Position numbers and translations under genes: made by a program
Notes under the pieces: model-generated
Databases searched by the model: none
Told to the model about the DNA's origin: nothing
The model's input: the letters and a program-made list of their open reading frames with translations, nothing else
NCBI GenBank assembly: GCA_030526175.1
Contig: JAUNDJ010000003.1
Coordinates: 1-59,301, forward strand
Length of the DNA: 59,301 nt
DNA from: Bacillota bacterium
GTDB lineage: Bacteria; Bacillota_I; Bacilli_A; Erysipelotrichales; Erysipelotrichaceae
Direction: 5' to 3'
Part shown: positions 16,549 through 48,272 of the stretch, piece by piece
Numbering within the stretch: the first letter of the stretch is position 1
How the letters are laid out: each line of letters starts with the position of its first letter

Positions 16549-17136
16549 ATGAAATTTGGAATTTGTATCTTAACAGGAGGGAAAAGTTCGCGAATGAAAT
16601 CTTTTCCCAAAGCCGATCTTACCTTGCATAATAAAACTTTTTTAGAAATTCTTGCGGAAGAATTGTCGGTGTTCGAAAACAAATATATTTCGCAAAATGC
16701 TTCCCAATCGTATCACTATACTGGTTATCAAAATGTGATAGATGAATATAATGAAATTGGTCCATTAGCTGGAATTGTTTCTACGTTTCATCAAAGTGAT
16801 GTTGACATTCTTTTTGTGTGCAGCTGTGATATGCCTTTGATTAAAAAGGAGCTTGTTTATTTTTTCTTATCCAAGCTAGAAGATTATGAAGGTATCTTTT
16901 TTGAAGACGAGAAACATACCTATACTACCGCAGGCATTTATACGAGAAATCTACTACTGACTATGGAAGAACAAATAAAAAATCAAGACTATCGTTTGTA
17001 TCCGATATTAAAGAGACATCAAATAAAATATCTTTTGGTTTCTGATTATGCGATGGATGACGATATGTTTATGAATATTAACACACCCGAAGAATATCAA
17101 AACATTTTGAAGAAAACATTTACAAAGAAAAAATAA
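16549..17136 (+). CDS. MobA-like nucleotidyltransferase
   Basis: A 195 aa protein of the MobA-like NTP transferase fold. The N-terminal nucleotide loop CILTGGKSSRMKSFPKA and the CSCDMPLIKK motif with the metal-binding Asp are present. MobA attaches GMP to molybdopterin, but no other molybdenum-cofactor gene is in the window, so the substrate is uncertain. It starts 7 bp after the asparaginase stop and is probably co-transcribed; no good ribosome site is visible, which suggests coupled translation. Confidence 0.75.
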   Translation: MKFGICILTGGKSSRMKSFPKADLTLHNKTFLEILAEELSVFENKYISQNASQSYHYTGYQNVIDEYNEIGPLAGIVSTFHQSDVDILFVCSCDMPLIKKELVYFFLSKLEDYEGIFFEDEKHTYTTAGIYTRNLLLTMEEQIKNQDYRLYPILKRHQIKYLLVSDYAMDDDMFMNINTPEEYQNILKKTFTKKK

Positions 17137-21532: not shown

Positions 21533-22186
21533 ATGAGTTATAAAGGTGTAATTTTTGATTTTAATGGAACTTTATTTTTTGATAACGATAAACATATTTT
21601 GGCGTGGGGAAAGATTTCTCAGTTAATTCGAGGCAAAGGAATTTCGGATTACGAGCTACATAGTCGAATCAATGGCTCTCCAAATAAAGAAACAATTTCT
21701 TATTTTTTTGAAGGAAAGTGTTCGCAAGAAGAGAACGATCGATATTCGTTATTAAAAGAAGAATACTATCGAGATTTTTGTGCCCAGGATCGGGAAAACT
21801 TCCATTTGGTAGCAGGGGCTAATGAATTTTTTGATCAACTAAAGGATAAAAGCATTCCTTTTACGATTGCGAGTGCTTCGATTAAACCAAACATCGACTT
21901 TTTTGTCGAATCTTTCCAATTGGATAAATGGATCGAACCCGATACAATCGTTTATGACAATGGCAGTTATCAAAATAAAATTGCGATGTTCAAAAAAGCA
22001 GGTGAGATATTGGGCGTATCTTTACAAGATTGTCTGATCATCGAAGATTCAAAAAGTGGAATTGAAAGTGCGTATGCCAGTGGTTGTGAACAGATTCTTG
22101 TGATTAATTCGGCAGATAAAAAAGACGAATATGAAAAGCTTCCAGGGGTAATTGGCGTGATTGAAGATTTCACAGAACTCGAATGA
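21533..22186 (+). CDS. HAD-superfamily hydrolase, beta-phosphoglucomutase-like
   Basis: A 217 aa HAD protein with a helical cap after motif I, as in phosphatase and phosphoglucomutase relatives. Motif I is VIFDFNGTLF, where the usual second Asp is Asn (DxN), which weakens plain phosphatase chemistry. Motif II is FTIASAS, motif IV IIEDSKSGIESA. GAGGGAG precedes the ATG at 21533. It overlaps the next gene by 4 bp (ATGA), so the two are translated together. Confidence 0.82.
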   Translation: MSYKGVIFDFNGTLFFDNDKHILAWGKISQLIRGKGISDYELHSRINGSPNKETISYFFEGKCSQEENDRYSLLKEEYYRDFCAQDRENFHLVAGANEFFDQLKDKSIPFTIASASIKPNIDFFVESFQLDKWIEPDTIVYDNGSYQNKIAMFKKAGEILGVSLQDCLIIEDSKSGIESAYASGCEQILVINSADKKDEYEKLPGVIGVIEDFTELE

Positions 22187-22737
22187 GAACATTTTTAAGT
22201 AAACGAAACGTAGTCATATTGGAACAAGGCATTGTTGTCAAAACAATGAACGATCCTTCTTTGTTGGAAAAAGAAGTGTGGATGTATCAACAACTTGAAA
22301 AATACAATGTGGTTCCTAAGCTATTAAAGAAAGAGAATAATTCTATTTTTTTAGAATACAAAGATTGTCTTACTTACTTGGATGTATTACTGGAACAGGA
22401 ACAAACAAAGTTTGACAAAACGCCTTGGGAAGCTTTGGTTCAATATTTAAAATTGTCTCAACAAGTAACTGGATTCCTTCCTATGGATTGTAACTTACGA
22501 AATTTTCTATGGGATGGAAAACAGATTTTTGCGATTGATTTTGAAGAATATGGAAATGTTTCTTTGACGACTTGTTTAGAAAAAATATCGGCTTACATAT
22601 TATTGTACGATCCAATCTATTCGAGTGTGAAACAAGAAATTGTAAATTATTATGTCCACCAATATGGAATGGATTGGAAACGTATTGATTTGGAACAAGA
22701 AAAACTACAAAAGAGAAGAGCGCAAAAGAGAAGATAG
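22183..22737 (+). CDS. Small kinase-fold protein (aminoglycoside/choline kinase-like)
   Basis: A 184 aa protein with a shortened kinase-like fold. DCNLRNFLWDGKQIFAIDFE (residues about 106-125) carries the catalytic Asp, metal-binding Asn and the DFE equivalent of DFG, and the N-terminal lobe has a possible VKTM lysine. It is shorter than aminoglycoside or choline kinases (about 260-300 aa), so it may be a minimal or specialised small-molecule kinase. Its start overlaps the HAD gene by 4 bp, hinting at a kinase/phosphatase pair. The basic C-terminal tail is rich in Lys and Arg. Confidence 0.55.
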   Translation: MRTFLSKRNVVILEQGIVVKTMNDPSLLEKEVWMYQQLEKYNVVPKLLKKENNSIFLEYKDCLTYLDVLLEQEQTKFDKTPWEALVQYLKLSQQVTGFLPMDCNLRNFLWDGKQIFAIDFEEYGNVSLTTCLEKISAYILLYDPIYSSVKQEIVNYYVHQYGMDWKRIDLEQEKLQKRRAQKRR

Positions 22738-22773
22738 AAGAATCCTTTTGTGCTATACTCGTAATAATAGAAT

Positions 22774-22952
22774 GTCTTCGAGTCTTATTTCCTAAGGAAT
22801 CTCTATGGAAATAAGACCGGAATCTTTGGATTCAAGGGCTAATGGAGAAATCGATTAACCTTCCGTGTTTGAAAAGAGGACTATATGTTTTAATGCACAA
22901 CCTTTTTTAGTTGTGGTTTTAATCGTATATAGTGCCTTGGTGGCACTTTTTT
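22774..22952 (+). promoter_or_regulatory. Structured leader RNA with terminator/antiterminator, putative riboswitch
   Basis: P1 pairs GUCUUC (22774-22779) with GAGGAC (22876-22881). Inside it are P2, a perfect 11-bp stem (22782-22792 with 22807-22817), P3 GAATC/GATTC (22820-22824, 22829-22833), and P4 (22834-22843 with 22854-22862, with internal mismatches). ACTATAT (22880-22886), which overlaps the P1 3' strand, is complementary to ATATAGT (22927-22933), which overlaps the 5' arm of the terminator at 22931-22952. So stable P1 would permit termination and open P1 would permit read-through. A further hairpin CACAAC/GTTGTG lies at 22896-22915. I do not recognise the consensus of a known riboswitch class. 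Confidence 0.65.
22931..22952 (+). terminator. Leader terminator before the ECF S-component gene
   Basis: AGTGCC (22931-22936), loop TTGGT, GGCACT (22942-22947), T-run to 22952, ending 18 bases before the ATG. Its location upstream of the gene means it controls entry into the operon. Confidence 0.8.
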
Positions 22953-22969
22953 GTTTGAAGGAGAAAAAA

Positions 22970-23500
22970 ATGAGAAAACTGCGTGTAAAAGAACTAATTT
23001 TTATCGCCATTTGTGCAGATCTAGGCTTGTTTTCCAAACGAATGATTTCTCCTTTCACAAATATCATAACCGATGCCTTACACATACCCGGAGGGATTGG
23101 AACAAGCTTTTCCCTGATGTTTCTTGTGCTCAGTGTAATGTTGCTCAAGAAAAAAGGGGTTGCAACGCTGATGAGCTTTATCCAATGTGTTATTGCCCTT
23201 TCCATCGGTATGGTAGGTAGTATGGGAGCTCTTTCAATTATTGGATATATGGTTCCAGGAATGGTGATTGATCTTCTTTTTGTGCTGACAAAAAAGATAC
23301 AGCTGACAAATATGGAAAAGTGTGCACTTCTTAATGCGATAGGCGCTTTATCCGCCGCTTTAACTGCCAATTGTATTGTCTTTCACTTAAAAGGAATCGT
23401 ATTGGCACTCTATGGTTCGGTTGCTCTATTTTCTGGTTTACTATGCGGCATCTTAGGAGACATTTTGTTACGAAGAATTCAAAAAGTGATTCAATTCTAG
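22970..23500 (+). CDS. ECF transporter S component (substrate-binding membrane subunit)
   Basis: A 176 aa integral membrane protein with five or six hydrophobic segments and the size and pattern of energy-coupling-factor S components, which capture vitamins or cofactors and dock to a shared EcfAAT module encoded elsewhere. The N-terminal KELIFIAICADLGLFSK helix and the later IGYMVPGMVIDLLFV helix (the latter with conserved small residues) fit. The ATG at 22970 follows GAAGGAG; an upstream GTG lies inside the structured leader and is not used. The ligand is unknown; the leader RNA may sense it or a derived cofactor. Confidence 0.78.
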   Translation: MRKLRVKELIFIAICADLGLFSKRMISPFTNIITDALHIPGGIGTSFSLMFLVLSVMLLKKKGVATLMSFIQCVIALSIGMVGSMGALSIIGYMVPGMVIDLLFVLTKKIQLTNMEKCALLNAIGALSAALTANCIVFHLKGIVLALYGSVALFSGLLCGILGDILLRRIQKVIQF

Positions 23501-23513
23501 AAGGAGAACAAAC

Positions 23514-23960
23514 ATGAAAAAAAGAAGATTAGCGATTGTGACCATTGCCTTAGCGCTTATTGTTGGTGTATGCAGCTGGATGTATTTAGGAAATCGTACA
23601 GCGATTCCTGAAAACTGTATCGAACTCGTTTATGAAAATAAGACATCGTATGTCGATTTAGATAAATTAGATTTAAAAGAAGTCACTGGCGAAACAATCA
23701 ATGGAAAAGGGGAAGTGAATACGATTCATTCCAATGGAATCGAATTAAAAGATGTATTGGAAAATCATAAAATCACTTCTTATGAAAATGTGACAGTGGA
23801 AGCAGACGATGCTTATAGTGCCGTGGTTGGTAAAGAAGAAATTGATGAAAAAGAAAAAGTATATGTATTAGTTGAGGAAGAAAAGGCTTCCCTAGTAGTA
23901 TTTGGAGATCCAAATAGTAAACGTAATGTAAGAAATGTGATTCGTATCACGGCAGAATAA
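23514..23960 (+). CDS. Membrane-anchored small protein with molybdopterin-domain-like C-terminus
   Basis: A 148 aa exported protein. Residues 1-27 form a signal or anchor (KKRRLAIVTIALALIVGV) with no lipobox Cys. The exported part, SNGIELKDVLENHKI then VEADDAYSAVV and VVFGDPNSKRNVRNVIRI, loosely follows the layout of sulfite-oxidase-type domains (G-x-x-L-x-D-L-L, DxYSA, closing V-R-x-I), but it is far too short to hold the cofactor pocket. It lies 13 bp after the S component with AAGGAG before the ATG, so it may capture the same ligand outside the cell. The family is uncertain. Confidence 0.55.
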   Translation: MKKRRLAIVTIALALIVGVCSWMYLGNRTAIPENCIELVYENKTSYVDLDKLDLKEVTGETINGKGEVNTIHSNGIELKDVLENHKITSYENVTVEADDAYSAVVGKEEIDEKEKVYVLVEEEKASLVVFGDPNSKRNVRNVIRITAE

Positions 23961-23983: not shown

Positions 23984-25034
23984 AGTAATCTCCATAGGAA
24001 ACATGCAAATATTCTTCAAGAGTTAATCCGGATTGATAGACTTTTGTGGCCAATTCAACACCTAAATAGCGTAGATGCCAAGGTTCGGCTTGATAGCCCG
24101 TGATATGTTCTTTTCCTTTTTGAAAACGAACGATAAATCCGTACTTGTGTGCGTTTTGAGAAATCCAATTGACTTCTCTAGTGGATTCAACGAGTTGGTA
24201 ATTTTTGTTGCATAAGTCAAAAGCCAACCCTGTTTGGTGTTCCGAAAATCCTGGACGAGCCGAATATGTATCGGCTGCTTCTTTGCCATCTTGATTAACG
24301 TAATTATTATAGAGTTGTGCTTGTGTTTGGTACGAACGATAACCACTATAGTAGGTGCTTATATCGTAACCAGCCGATCGCATGGTTGAAATAAGATTGC
24401 GGATGGCAGCTCCTGCCACTGGATCTTCACCAGGTGCATAAGAAGAATTTAATCCGTGCTTCTTGTTTACGATTAATACATCATCCACGTAGTAACAATA
24501 TCCATACGTATAGGTTAATGAGCGATTGCTTTCTATACTTTCTTCTTTTGTCGCTTTACGAAGGGCATAGCTGACTATCCCATTTTGTTTCCAACCTTCC
24601 GATTTTAGATATTGGTATTCTGAAAAATTGGTTGTAAAAGAATACGCGCCACTTCTTTGATTCGTTTTCTCATTTTCAAAGATAGGAACCGCTTCATTGG
24701 CGCTTGAATACCACGCAATGCCCTCGTCAATATATCCCGAAGCGAGTAGTTCTTCTTTTTCTTTTTTGTCCATGGTATATACTCGTCGGTCTAAATATGT
24801 ACTATATAGTTGATATACTGGATAGTCTGAATAAGAAGGGGCAAACCAGCTAATGCCCTCGTACGCCCATCCATCCTTTACGATTTTGTTTCGAAATTCT
24901 ATATCAGTTGTATAGTAGTGTTCCTTATTGCCAACATAGTATAGTTGATAAACGGGCACTTCTTCGTTCGCGTAAACGGTTCTCGGGAAGCAACAAAAAA
25001 GAAGCAAGCTTAGAATTATAAGTTGTTTGCGCAT
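23982..25034 (-). CDS. Secreted D-Ala-D-Ala carboxypeptidase, VanY type, with N-terminal repeats
   Basis: A 350 aa exported peptidase of family M15B. A signal peptide (about 1-22, ending TVYA) is followed by tandem repeats around 27-165 of the DUF5648 type (VYQLYYVGNKEHYYTTD, then VYQLYSTYLDRRVYTMD), probably wall- or glycan-binding. The C-terminal peptidase has SEHQTGLAFD (zinc His and Asp) and EPWHLRYLG (base Glu, zinc His). It trims stem-peptide D-Ala outside the membrane. Its start overlaps the end of the preceding reductase gene by 19 bp, an unexpected partner. Confidence 0.88.
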   Translation of the reverse strand: MRKQLIILSLLLFCCFPRTVYANEEVPVYQLYYVGNKEHYYTTDIEFRNKIVKDGWAYEGISWFAPSYSDYPVYQLYSTYLDRRVYTMDKKEKEELLASGYIDEGIAWYSSANEAVPIFENEKTNQRSGAYSFTTNFSEYQYLKSEGWKQNGIVSYALRKATKEESIESNRSLTYTYGYCYYVDDVLIVNKKHGLNSSYAPGEDPVAGAAIRNLISTMRSAGYDISTYYSGYRSYQTQAQLYNNYVNQDGKEAADTYSARPGFSEHQTGLAFDLCNKNYQLVESTREVNWISQNAHKYGFIVRFQKGKEHITGYQAEPWHLRYLGVELATKVYQSGLTLEEYLHVSYGDY

Positions 25035-27022
25035 TGGTAAGCACTTCGAATGGCACTGGAAATATCTGCCGTTTTATCTTGCGAACAATCGCCAATATAA
25101 TGAATTGGTTTATCCAATCCTGTTAGATCGATTTCTTTTTTCTTAGAACCAACCGCAACAATTACCATATCGCAAGGAATTTCGATTTCTTGTTCGTCTT
25201 TAGTTGCCAAAATGGCAGTTCCATTAAATCCAGTTACTTTTGTGTTTGTATATTCTTGTACGTTATGTTCTTTAAAATCTTTTTGAATGACTGGTAAGAT
25301 GGTTGATGATTCGCCACGAGCAATTGTATCTAACATTTCTACAATCGCGACTTCACAACCTTTTTCAAGGGCAAATTCTGCCGTTTCTGTACCAACTAAT
25401 CCACCACCAATGATAGCTACTTTTCCTTGGATCTCAACTTTTCCATCCAATACATCCCAACTTGAAACCACTTTTTCTCCTTGTAAGAAAGGAAGCGAAA
25501 TGTCTTGCGCACCAATGGCTACGATAATTTCATCGTATCCAGAGACACAATGGATACATGGTGTACGATTGTATTTAATTTCTACACCAAGAGCAGGTAA
25601 TACTTTTTCATAATATTGAATAGAACGTAAGATTTCTTCTTTGCGAGGCGGTTTGCTGGCCAAATGGATTTGTCCACCTATTTTGTCTTCTTTTTCAAAA
25701 ATAGTCACTTGATGACCGCGGATAGCAGCCACTCTAGCCGCTTCTAAACCAGCGATTCCAGCACCGATGATGGCTACTTTTTTTGAAGAGTTGCTTGGAA
25801 GAATCTTCATTGTTTCTTCGTTTCCATTTTCAGCATTTAGTACACAAGAAATGTATTTACGATTTTGGATCGCATCCACACATCCTTTGTTGCAGTTTAA
25901 ACATTCACGAATTGGTTCGTCTTTCATGACCTTGTTGGCAATATCTGGATCGGTCAATAATGAACGTCCATAACCGATAATATCCGCTTTTTCTTCGGCT
26001 AAAATCGTTTCTCCATTTTCTACCGAAATAACTCTTCCTACGGTTGCCACAGGGATGGATACGAGCGATTTCACTTTTTCACAAATATCCAATGTCCAGT
26101 TTTCTGGAAGTGTTCCCATTGGAGGAATTGTATCTCCCATATTTCCTGTGTGGTTGGCTTGGGCAACCTGGATCATATTGACACCCGCTTTTTCTAATTC
26201 TTGGGCTAGAATATACGCTTCTTCCGGAATTAGTCCGCCTTTTCCGCGTAAACTTCCATCGGGATTGGTTGTGATGATTGGAAGCTTGTATTCGATTGTG
26301 ATTTCTGGAGCGGCTTCTTTAATGGCATGAACTATTTCAAGGGCGTAACGGATTCGATTTTTTAGTTCTCCACCATATTCATCCGTACGATGATTTAATA
26401 AGGATGAGCATAAAGAACCAATCAATCTATCACCATGGATCTCAATCGCATCCACACCAGCCATTTGAGCACGTTTGGCACAAGCGGCAATGGAATTCTT
26501 AATGTCCATTAATGTGTCTTGACTACATTCACTGACGAAAAATTTCATATCGTGGTGTAGTTTCGCATACGCTTCGCCACGAATCTTTTCACTTTCTGCC
26601 ATTTTTGTTTGGAACGTTTCCATATCGCCTTTGGCTTTGGCTTCTTGGGCGGCTTTCATAGCCATCATAGATCCCATGATCATTTTTCCCACACCAACAA
26701 CATCGTATTCTGGATGGAAAATTTGTAGTCCTAGTTTACAATCGTATTCGTGAAGGGCATCGGCCAATTTTTTGAAAGTTGGGATTTGTGCATCGCTATA
26801 TAGCTTTGGGGTTGGACTGGCTGTATTTACAGGAGCTACATCTCCAATCACCACATATCCGACACCACCTTGGGCTAGGCGTTTGTAGAAATAGAAACTA
26901 CGATTACCAATCGAACCGTCTCGTTCTTCGTAACCTGTTGTTAGTGGGGGAAACATAATGCGGTTTTTTAGAGTCATATTTCCCACTTGAATGCTTTGTA
27001 GAAGCTTAGAATTTGTACTCAT
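25016..27022 (-). CDS. NADH:flavin oxidoreductase of the 2,4-dienoyl-CoA reductase/BaiCD family
   Basis: A 668 aa three-cofactor reductase. Residues 1 to about 370 are an old-yellow-enzyme barrel (FMN; LKNRIMFPP, NHRTDEYGG, TVGRV). The 4Fe-4S cluster lies at CLNCNKGC plus a later Cys near 380-400. From about 415 two dinucleotide folds follow: AIIGAGIAGLEAAR for FAD and AIIGGGLVGTETAE for NAD(P)H. The barrel has a charged insert around residues 115-175 compared with FadH. Such enzymes reduce enoates, dienoyl-CoA or steroid double bonds in anaerobes; this one's substrate is not known. Confidence 0.9.
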   Translation of the reverse strand: MSTNSKLLQSIQVGNMTLKNRIMFPPLTTGYEERDGSIGNRSFYFYKRLAQGGVGYVVIGDVAPVNTASPTPKLYSDAQIPTFKKLADALHEYDCKLGLQIFHPEYDVVGVGKMIMGSMMAMKAAQEAKAKGDMETFQTKMAESEKIRGEAYAKLHHDMKFFVSECSQDTLMDIKNSIAACAKRAQMAGVDAIEIHGDRLIGSLCSSLLNHRTDEYGGELKNRIRYALEIVHAIKEAAPEITIEYKLPIITTNPDGSLRGKGGLIPEEAYILAQELEKAGVNMIQVAQANHTGNMGDTIPPMGTLPENWTLDICEKVKSLVSIPVATVGRVISVENGETILAEEKADIIGYGRSLLTDPDIANKVMKDEPIRECLNCNKGCVDAIQNRKYISCVLNAENGNEETMKILPSNSSKKVAIIGAGIAGLEAARVAAIRGHQVTIFEKEDKIGGQIHLASKPPRKEEILRSIQYYEKVLPALGVEIKYNRTPCIHCVSGYDEIIVAIGAQDISLPFLQGEKVVSSWDVLDGKVEIQGKVAIIGGGLVGTETAEFALEKGCEVAIVEMLDTIARGESSTILPVIQKDFKEHNVQEYTNTKVTGFNGTAILATKDEQEIEIPCDMVIVAVGSKKKEIDLTGLDKPIHYIGDCSQDKTADISSAIRSAYQCANNL

Positions 27023-41589: not shown

Positions 41590-41615
41590 AAGTGCATTCA
41601 TATAGGAGGTTTATT

Positions 41616-46977: not shown

Positions 46978-46994
46978 TAAGAGGAGGGATGTTT

Positions 46995-48272
46995 GTGTTT
47001 CATGTTGAGGATGACAAGATTAAGGCACTAATTTTAAAGGGGAATTTTGGTTTGGAGAAGGAGAGCCTTCGGATTACACAGGACGGATACATGGCACATA
47101 CGGGACATCCTTTTGTAGGGGATAAACATATTGTTCGTGATTTTTCGGAGAATCAGATTGAAATTAATACATCTGTGGAATCTACTGCGGAGGATGCCGT
47201 CGCAAGTTTATATCGGTATACGGTGAAGATTCAGAAAAAACTTGCGGAAAATGGCGAATTGTTATGGCCTTTTTCCTCACCACCTTATATTCGAAATGAG
47301 AATGATATTCCTATCGCATTTTTTGAGGAACCTTATTCTTCCCAAGTAAAATACCGAGAGTATTTATCGGATCGATATGGAAGATACAAGATGAGCTTTT
47401 CTGGAATTCATGTAAATTATTCGTTTTCGGATGAATTGCTGGAGGCGGATTTTGCGTTGAGTTCATATTCTGATTTTCAGAAATATAAAAATGATTTGTA
47501 TCTGGTTCTTGCGGAACGTGCAGCTTCTTATAGCTGGATTCTGACTGCGGTTACGGCTGCCAGTCCGTATTTGGATAGCTCTTTTGTAGAAAAAGGAGTA
47601 TATGGGAAGAATTCCTTTAATGGAATGGCATCGACTCGTTGTAGCGAATTGGGATATTGGAATTACTTTACACCAATTTTTGATTATTCGAGTCTAGAAG
47701 CTTATTGTGATAAGATTGAATGGTTTGTGAAGCAGGAGCTGATTGTTTCGCCTAGTGAATTGTATTATCCAGTTCGAATTAAACCGAAAGGGGTAAATAG
47801 CCTGGAACGTTTGAAACACGATGGGGTGGATCATATTGAATTGCGTATGTTTGACCTAAATCCTTTATGTAAGGAGGGAATCGATATTCGTGATTTGAAA
47901 TTTGCTCAGTTGCTTCTAGTGTATCTAGCTAGTTCTCCTAGACAAACATACGAGCAAAAGGATCAGGTCAATTCATCACAGAACTTTAAAAATGCAGCTC
48001 ATTACGATTTGCAGACAGTGAAGATTTCGATTCCTGATAATACTGCATTGTCTGTAGTGGATGCAGGTCGGGAAGTAATTGGATTTCTAAGAGAATTCTA
48101 CCAGGGATTCCCTCAGGAGATTCAGGATATTCTGGATTACGAAGAGGCTAAATTTATTAATCCAGAGTTGCGTTATGCATGGCAGGTTCGAAAGCTGTAT
48201 TCGGATGGATTTGTTTCCGGCGGTCTTGAACTTGCGAAGAAATATCAGGAGATGGCAATAAAAGATGTGTGA
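46995..48272 (+). CDS. gshA: Glutamate-cysteine ligase
   Basis: About 425 aa, matching the ligase domain that forms gamma-glutamylcysteine. FGLEKESLRI near residue 20 is the family signature; MSFSGIHVNYSF, STRCSELGYWNYF and HIELRMFDLNP (metal and substrate sites) follow. It lacks the ATP-grasp half of bifunctional GshAB. GTG 46995 is preferred because GGAGG lies 7 bases upstream, whereas ATG 46989 is only 1 base away. It overlaps the amidotransferase by 8 bp. Gln codons are 14 CAG to 3 CAA by my count, unlike the neighbours outside the cassette. Confidence 0.9.
   Translation: MFHVEDDKIKALILKGNFGLEKESLRITQDGYMAHTGHPFVGDKHIVRDFSENQIEINTSVESTAEDAVASLYRYTVKIQKKLAENGELLWPFSSPPYIRNENDIPIAFFEEPYSSQVKYREYLSDRYGRYKMSFSGIHVNYSFSDELLEADFALSSYSDFQKYKNDLYLVLAERAASYSWILTAVTAASPYLDSSFVEKGVYGKNSFNGMASTRCSELGYWNYFTPIFDYSSLEAYCDKIEWFVKQELIVSPSELYYPVRIKPKGVNSLERLKHDGVDHIELRMFDLNPLCKEGIDIRDLKFAQLLLVYLASSPRQTYEQKDQVNSSQNFKNAAHYDLQTVKISIPDNTALSVVDAGREVIGFLREFYQGFPQEIQDILDYEEAKFINPELRYAWQVRKLYSDGFVSGGLELAKKYQEMAIKDV

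Follow-up and report, generated by a model that had tools for sequence, protein, structure and literature searches.

Introduction

To our knowledge, Moco is generally viewed as a cofactor that every cell must make for itself. Several described systems come close to the locus reported here, and we draw on parts of the papers cited for them. The Moco RNA of E. coli represses in response to Moco, and within this riboswitch class (RF01055) the presence of a P3 stem marks the Moco rather than the Tuco (tungsten) type (PMC2408646). The targets named in the portion of that paper used here are synthesis genes, molybdate or tungstate transporters and enzymes that use the cofactor, and in an excerpt of another paper the pathway under Moco RNA control is one "without a transport protein" (PMC9495176). 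In C. difficile, the PreQ1 riboswitch-QrtT operon places an end-product riboswitch before an ECF S-component and salvage enzymes (PMC11477304). The pterin binder PruR (7kom, 7kp2) has a SUOX-type fold and an N-terminal export or anchor segment, occurs with DcpA-type regulators in Proteobacteria, lacks the metal-binding cysteine and has a pocket that is likely unable to hold Moco (PMC13259868). Ready-made Moco is reused by an animal, C. elegans, which obtains it from its bacterial diet (PMC9793310). Among open-licence papers in PubMed Central we found neither a bacterial Moco importer nor an ECF transporter directed at Moco and paired with a PruR-fold protein.

Here we describe a bacterial locus that shares features with each of these systems. 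The window, meaning the whole stretch of 59,301 nucleotides that was analysed, holds a leader RNA with the full-length match, core and P1-P5 helices of the RF01055 class and the terminator platform of some of its members in PMC2408646, but the genes behind it encode an ECF S-component (hereafter S) and a PruR-fold protein (D). S has the six-helix fold and size of the S-components of ECF vitamin transporters (5edl, PF09819), and one genome adds dedicated A1, A2 and T components; here, however, the switch and the neighbouring genes suggest Moco and not thiamin. The plan is that of the PreQ1-QrtT operon, with a different ligand, S family and set of enzymes, while D has the fold, the N-terminal segment and the lack of a metal-binding cysteine known from PruR but is found with an ECF S-component and MobA. 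The reuse of ready-made Moco would be as in C. elegans, with a bacterial importer as the candidate. The RNA class and the S fold are thus known, and the oddity is the controlled gene, not the RNA. Judging from the sequence comparisons below, we propose, with a probability of about 0.7, that the locus encodes an ECF importer under riboswitch control, with Moco or a closely related form as its substrate.

Results

The leader RNA matches the Moco riboswitch class

The structured leader spans positions 22764-22952, just 5' of an S-component-like ORF (Table 1). RF01055, the Moco/Tuco riboswitch family, matched it over its full length; the score was 86.5 bits, the gathering score is 36, and E for a search of the whole window was 1.1e-19. 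This was the sole RF01055 match in the 2.85 Mb genome to which the window belongs, and the remaining Rfam matches around the leader (E up to 10) were all far below their own gathering scores. An earlier note on this DNA had described a riboswitch of unrecognised class, had ruled out the Moco core by eye and had named an Infernal search against Rfam as the check that could refute it. That search overturned the assignment: because RF01055 covers the leader full length, the exclusion of the Moco class was wrong, and a new class, for which nothing speaks beyond the impression in that note, is with near certainty ruled out. Where the note counted helices P1 to P4, the Rfam consensus alignment has P1 to P5. 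Judged by this match, the leader RNA is a Moco riboswitch of the known RF01055 class.

Table 1. Features of the locus, in window coordinates
Feature	Position	Strand	Basis
MobA-like guanylyltransferase	16549..17136	+	PF12804, 79.7 bits
Kinase-like protein, APH type (D-x4-N, DFE motifs)	22183..22737	+	below Pfam cut-off
Possible extended -10 promoter element TGCTATACT	22751..22759	+	seen by eye; absent from promoter-scan list
Moco riboswitch aptamer (RF01055)	22764..22895	+	86.5 bits, model 1-135 of 135; covariation
P1 core	22774-22779 with 22876-22881	+	Rfam alignment; 88.9% of cells paired in 54 RNAs
P3 stem, Moco type by the PMC2408646 rule	22819..22833	+	3 of 4 model pairs formed
Antiterminator	22880-22887 with 22926-22933	+	folding computation
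Intrinsic terminator	22931..22952	+	stem 22931-22947, T run to 22952
ECF S-component, YkoE-like (S), candidate Moco importer subunit	22970..23500	+	PF09819; fold 5edl
Membrane-anchored PruR/SUOX-fold protein (D), candidate pterin-cofactor binder	23514..23960	+	predicted model; 7kom, Z 13.5

Homologous leaders, which the earlier note had named as a check, supported the helices. In an alignment of 55 related RNAs (54 distinct) that was fitted to the model and whose rows are related, 81.8% of the cells in paired columns of the distinct RNAs were paired, compared to 61.4% in shuffled alignments, a level that none of 500 shuffles reached. The covariation value was 0.471 in the leader alignment and 0.180 in the shuffles, and the signal dropped once the partner columns were slid by 1-3 columns. 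In the 54 distinct RNAs of this model-fitted alignment, 34 of 40 pairs change on both sides, and the GAAA-capped stem (Rfam's third helix) was paired in 90.9% of cells. The window's own leader, taken to 22960, had a more stable fold than every one of 200 dinucleotide shuffles (z = -3.84). As a member of RF01055, it would have Moco as its putative ligand.

The downstream half of the leader also agreed largely with the earlier reading, in which an OFF-type riboswitch precedes an ECF S-component; this reading is now backed by sequence, by covariation and by the literature on the class. The pairing of 22880-22886 with 22927-22933 was confirmed, and the terminator was found exactly where it had been placed, though 17 bases from the ATG and not 18. 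A GGAG motif at 22960 precedes this start codon at 22970. The three-way exclusion that had been claimed between P1, antiterminator and terminator held in kind but not in extent: the competing pairings exist, but P1 and the antiterminator overlap at 22880-22881 only, and the antiterminator and the terminator at 22931-22933 only. The exclusion is therefore narrower than stated, and the minimum-energy fold contains P1, the terminator and, in shortened form, the antiterminator helix at once. Constrained folding gave -54.6 kcal/mol for P1 plus terminator and -53.7 kcal/mol for the antiterminator, near-equal values that suit a switch without proving one. This layout, read together with the E. coli experiments in the part of PMC2408646 used here, suggests that the window RNA would turn expression OFF with Moco.

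S and D have the predicted folds of an ECF S-component and a pterin binder

S scored 27.3 bits against PF09819 (cut-off 25.2). Its AlphaFold model (mean pLDDT 91) matched ECF S-components among solved folds, the best being 5edl, which we take to be the thiamin-related YkoE (Z 18.5, rmsd 2.8, 171 residues aligned). A sequence search of S against solved structures returned nothing at E up to 1, and D gave a weak match only (7kp2, E 0.023), so both fold assignments are those of predicted models. By family and by predicted fold, S is an ECF S-component.

D consists of an N-terminal helix resembling a membrane anchor and an ectodomain (model pLDDT 95). The best solved match of the ectodomain was the PruR pterin binder 7kom (Z 13.5, rmsd 2.5, 111 residues aligned), and sulfite oxidase 3hbg scored Z 12.8; the model thus gives D a SUOX-type fold. 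PF00174 was above cut-off for relatives of D at two other loci (L041 and L047), and the profile search returned no PF00174 row for the window's D. We considered whether D is itself a SUOX-family molybdoenzyme and rejected this, since 38 D sequences share no conserved cysteine (at most seven have one in the same column). Given that the PruR pocket is likely unfit for Moco, a PruR-like fold by itself does not show Moco binding, and D is from its predicted fold a candidate binder of a pterin cofactor.

The kinase-like and MobA-like genes both lie upstream of S. The kinase-like protein has the motifs listed in Table 1, scored 14.3 bits against PF01636, below the cut-off of 23.2, and clusters with genes of two other S loci (L046, L047). 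The MobA-like protein exceeded the cut-off of 27 for PF12804 (NTP_transf_3) but scored 104.8 bits against the NCBIfam MobA equivalog, whose cut-off is 164, and for this reason we call it MobA-like only. At some loci (L041, L089) the kinase domain is joined to MobA. Other fusions of MobA-like domains were seen as well, with a PF03266 P-loop NTPase domain (L039:8176-9453 and L090:8868-9995), possibly a second, unrelated way to supply a phosphate step, and with FdhD at a Treponema S locus (L129:6208-7473).

A plasmid or viral origin of the locus was considered and set aside: the stretch 22764-23500 had no match in 72,556 plasmid records, and the scanned viral contigs held no relative of S.

The Moco RNA and S are linked at many loci

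Among 294 genomes of the window's order, RF01055 matched 33 (31 above the cut-off) and S was present in 21, of which 17 carry the RNA at the S locus. A scan of GTDB with an S alignment and one peptide pattern yielded 57 S loci from Lachnospiraceae, Oscillospiraceae, Erysipelotrichaceae, Butyricicoccus, Oribacterium, Treponema and others, mostly gut or rumen MAGs; this number is a lower bound, because relatives like that of genome G086 escape a single pattern. A covariance model, R1, trained on 30 RF01055 hits from the window's order, found a Moco RNA at 40 of the 57 loci; some of the 57 come from the genomes that supplied the training hits. It always lay on the strand of S, upstream of S or overlapping its start: directly before S at 29 loci and before MobA followed by S at 11. 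Rfam, run on 19 distinct sources, found RF01055 in seven, all among the 40 that R1 finds. At 12 of these 40 loci, the model match runs 8-10 bases into the start of S, which would fit translation control there. R1 found no Moco RNA at the other 17 loci; in four of these (L094, L098, L109, L134) the sequence starts at S or just ahead of it.

Neighbouring genes at the 57 loci were counted with profile searches, as blast clustering overlooks genes under longer antisense ORFs. D was present at 55 loci, and the two without it (L115, L142) stop within S or soon after. A MobA-like gene was found at 51 loci, a molybdoenzyme within about 10 kb at 41, and an APH-like kinase at 21. In G086 (L047), downstream of the Moco RNA come, in order, a D-like gene, S, D, genes for two ABC ATPases and for a CbiQ-family T protein, and a kinase-like gene; by sequence this is a complete dedicated ECF set, and despite the full cassette the genome has no PF00384 match.

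P3 is missing from about 13 of the 41 Moco RNAs linked to S (L021, L089, L092, L095, L099, L100, L101, L102, L106, L107, L108, L114, L121), which by the rule in the cited part of PMC2408646 would assign them to the tungsten cofactor. S may serve both metals.

Many genomes with S have molybdoenzymes and lack Moco synthesis genes

The marker set for synthesis and uptake comprised MoaA, MoaC, MoeA_N, a second MoeA-like protein, ModA and TupA. MoaA was called from matches over about 200 bits, which 36 of the 294 genomes of the window's order have. The window's genome has no detectable MoaA, MoaC, MoeA, ModA or TupA, the MoaA search giving only an 85-bit match of radical-SAM type. It nonetheless encodes two PF00384 molybdoenzymes (at L150 and L149), the former a DMSO/selenate-reductase-family protein beside Fe-S and pyridine-nucleotide partners.

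This pattern extends through the order. Seventeen of its 21 S genomes, the window's included, have neither MoaA nor MoaC, and none of these 17 has MoeA_N, which was searched in 75 genomes. Since several MoaA- and MoaC-positive genomes also lack MoeA_N (G102, G175, G195, G106, G029, G040), it is a poor lone marker, and we searched too for the different MoeA-like protein that these genomes carry. At one locus (L154:3404-8846) the latter adjoins modABC. A PF00384 molybdoenzyme occurs in 20 of the 21 S genomes and, among the MoaA-less genomes examined, in 16 of 17 with S compared to none of 22 without S, 20 of the latter having been hand-picked from genomes without RNA, S or MoaA. PF00384 was searched in 75 of the 294 genomes; within these, all 16 MoaA-less molybdoenzyme genomes carry S, a figure with a built-in bias, as all S genomes among the 294 had been put into this set. 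Fisher values on such counts (e.g. 4.5e-10) ignore relatedness, and we do not rely on them. Among the 33 RNA-bearing genomes, S was present in 13 of 15 without MoaA and in 4 of 18 with MoaA.

We searched 39 further S genomes and kept 38, G331 being the same contig as G038. MoaA was found in 15 of them, three by partial or split matches (G330, G304, G305), and was missing in 23; MoaC status followed MoaA status except in G304. Over all 59 S genomes, 40 lack MoaA and 19 have it. Most are MAGs, those of the window's order being 84-96% complete, but four of the 40 are isolates of 3.5-3.7 Mb (Oribacterium sp. P6A1 and C9, Lachnospiraceae NE2001 and LC2019). All four isolate loci are among the 17 in which R1 found no RNA, yet they keep the molybdoenzyme, S, D and MobA-like genes, so that the case for an importer draws on more than the RNA. 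In a tree of 38 S proteins, MoaA status switches at least five times on well-supported branches and nine times by parsimony; the labels were only weakly more clustered than shuffled ones (51 and 69 of 500 as low), and the place of the window's S in this tree is unsupported.

Metal uptake markers followed the same division. None of the 40 S genomes without MoaA has ModA above cut-off (the match in G314 reaches 27 of the 62.5 bits required), TupA (G220 has a partial match of 21.8 bits) or the second MoeA-like protein at full length. Of the 19 S genomes with MoaA, 17 have one or the other transporter gene (14 ModA, three others TupA), and in G294 and G308 both are missing. Barring routes outside the search set, it is simplest to suppose that in these 40 genomes the cofactor would bring the metal with it.

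Discussion

Our data suggest the following scheme. When Moco is plentiful, it would bind the aptamer and hold P1, disfavouring the antiterminator, and transcription would terminate before S. When Moco is scarce, the antiterminator would form and readthrough would allow S and D to be made. D would act as an extracytoplasmic binder of pterin cofactors that captures Moco or a close form, and S, as the substrate-specific subunit of an ECF transporter, would bring it in together with D and the ECF module, probably with the metal already inside. The kinase-like protein, where present and in some cases fused to MobA, might then put back a phosphate that the cofactor had lost before uptake, and MobA would attach GMP, giving the guanine dinucleotide form for enzymes of the DMSO-reductase family. 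Taken as a whole, with intact metal-bearing Moco as the substrate and all of these partners in their assigned roles, the scheme remains tentative, and we put it at slightly below even odds. An exclusive link to MoaA-less genomes is contradicted by the 19 of 59 S genomes that have MoaA, and the kinase step is weakened by the presence of an APH-like kinase at just 21 of 57 loci and by the score of the window's copy below the Pfam cut-off. The 17 loci at which R1 found no Moco RNA, the S-linked RNAs that lack P3 and the missing PF00384 match of G086 likewise count against the scheme.

What S carries can be asked of the same data. It might be a molybdenum-free precursor, molybdopterin or cPMP, into which the cell inserts the metal itself; the pterin fold of D and the linkage to MobA suit any form of molybdopterin, and some S genomes do carry ModA and the MoeA-like protein. 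Against this, ModA above cut-off, TupA and the full-length second MoeA-like protein occur in none of the 40 MoaA-less S genomes and MoeA_N in none of the 17 of the order, and even allowing for undetected metal routes or insertases we consider import of a precursor unlikely. We give little credence to the proposal that S imports molybdate or tungstate and that the pterin is made by unrecognised enzymes. S does take the place of ModA and TupA in the MoaA-less set, and Moco RNAs have been described upstream of molybdate transporters (PMC2408646, in the portion used here), but the predicted S fold is that of vitamin S-components, D has a predicted pterin-binding fold, and a metal importer alone would not yield Moco in the 40 S genomes, because MoaA and MoaC are missing there.

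S might instead import something unrelated, for instance thiamin or its pyrimidine, with the Moco switch as a regulatory coincidence; this would accord with 5edl, the thiamin-related YkoE, as the closest solved fold. We give very little credence to such a coincidence, with Moco RNAs over 40 of the 57 loci and MobA-like genes or molybdoenzymes beside S at 51 and 41 of them. Moreover, a TPP riboswitch precedes a transporter gene set elsewhere in the window's genome (L149:3409-3508, + strand), which gives thiamin-type regulation a separate locus in that genome. We therefore favour import of Moco or a close form.

If this is true, bacteria possess a Moco importer, and Moco serves as a common nutrient in the communities of gut and rumen, where many bacteria would run molybdoenzymes without pterin synthesis or molybdate or tungstate uptake, on Moco released by their neighbours. 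Genomes that seem incapable of running molybdoenzymes could then do so after all. The locus would also add a new type of target gene to a known riboswitch class and provide a candidate protein set for the passage of Moco across membranes, a question relevant to Moco deficiency.

Two further features of the window were observed. Shortly downstream of S and D, on the opposite strand, lies a gene for the long form of bilirubin reductase (25016-27022; NF045599, 1015 bits, cut-off 750). Five related ORFs on the + strand between 41592 and 51359 (starts at 41592, 42590, 43567, 49138 and 50277) share by eye a similar N-terminal stretch, and an ORF beside them (46989-48272) resembles glutamate-cysteine ligase.
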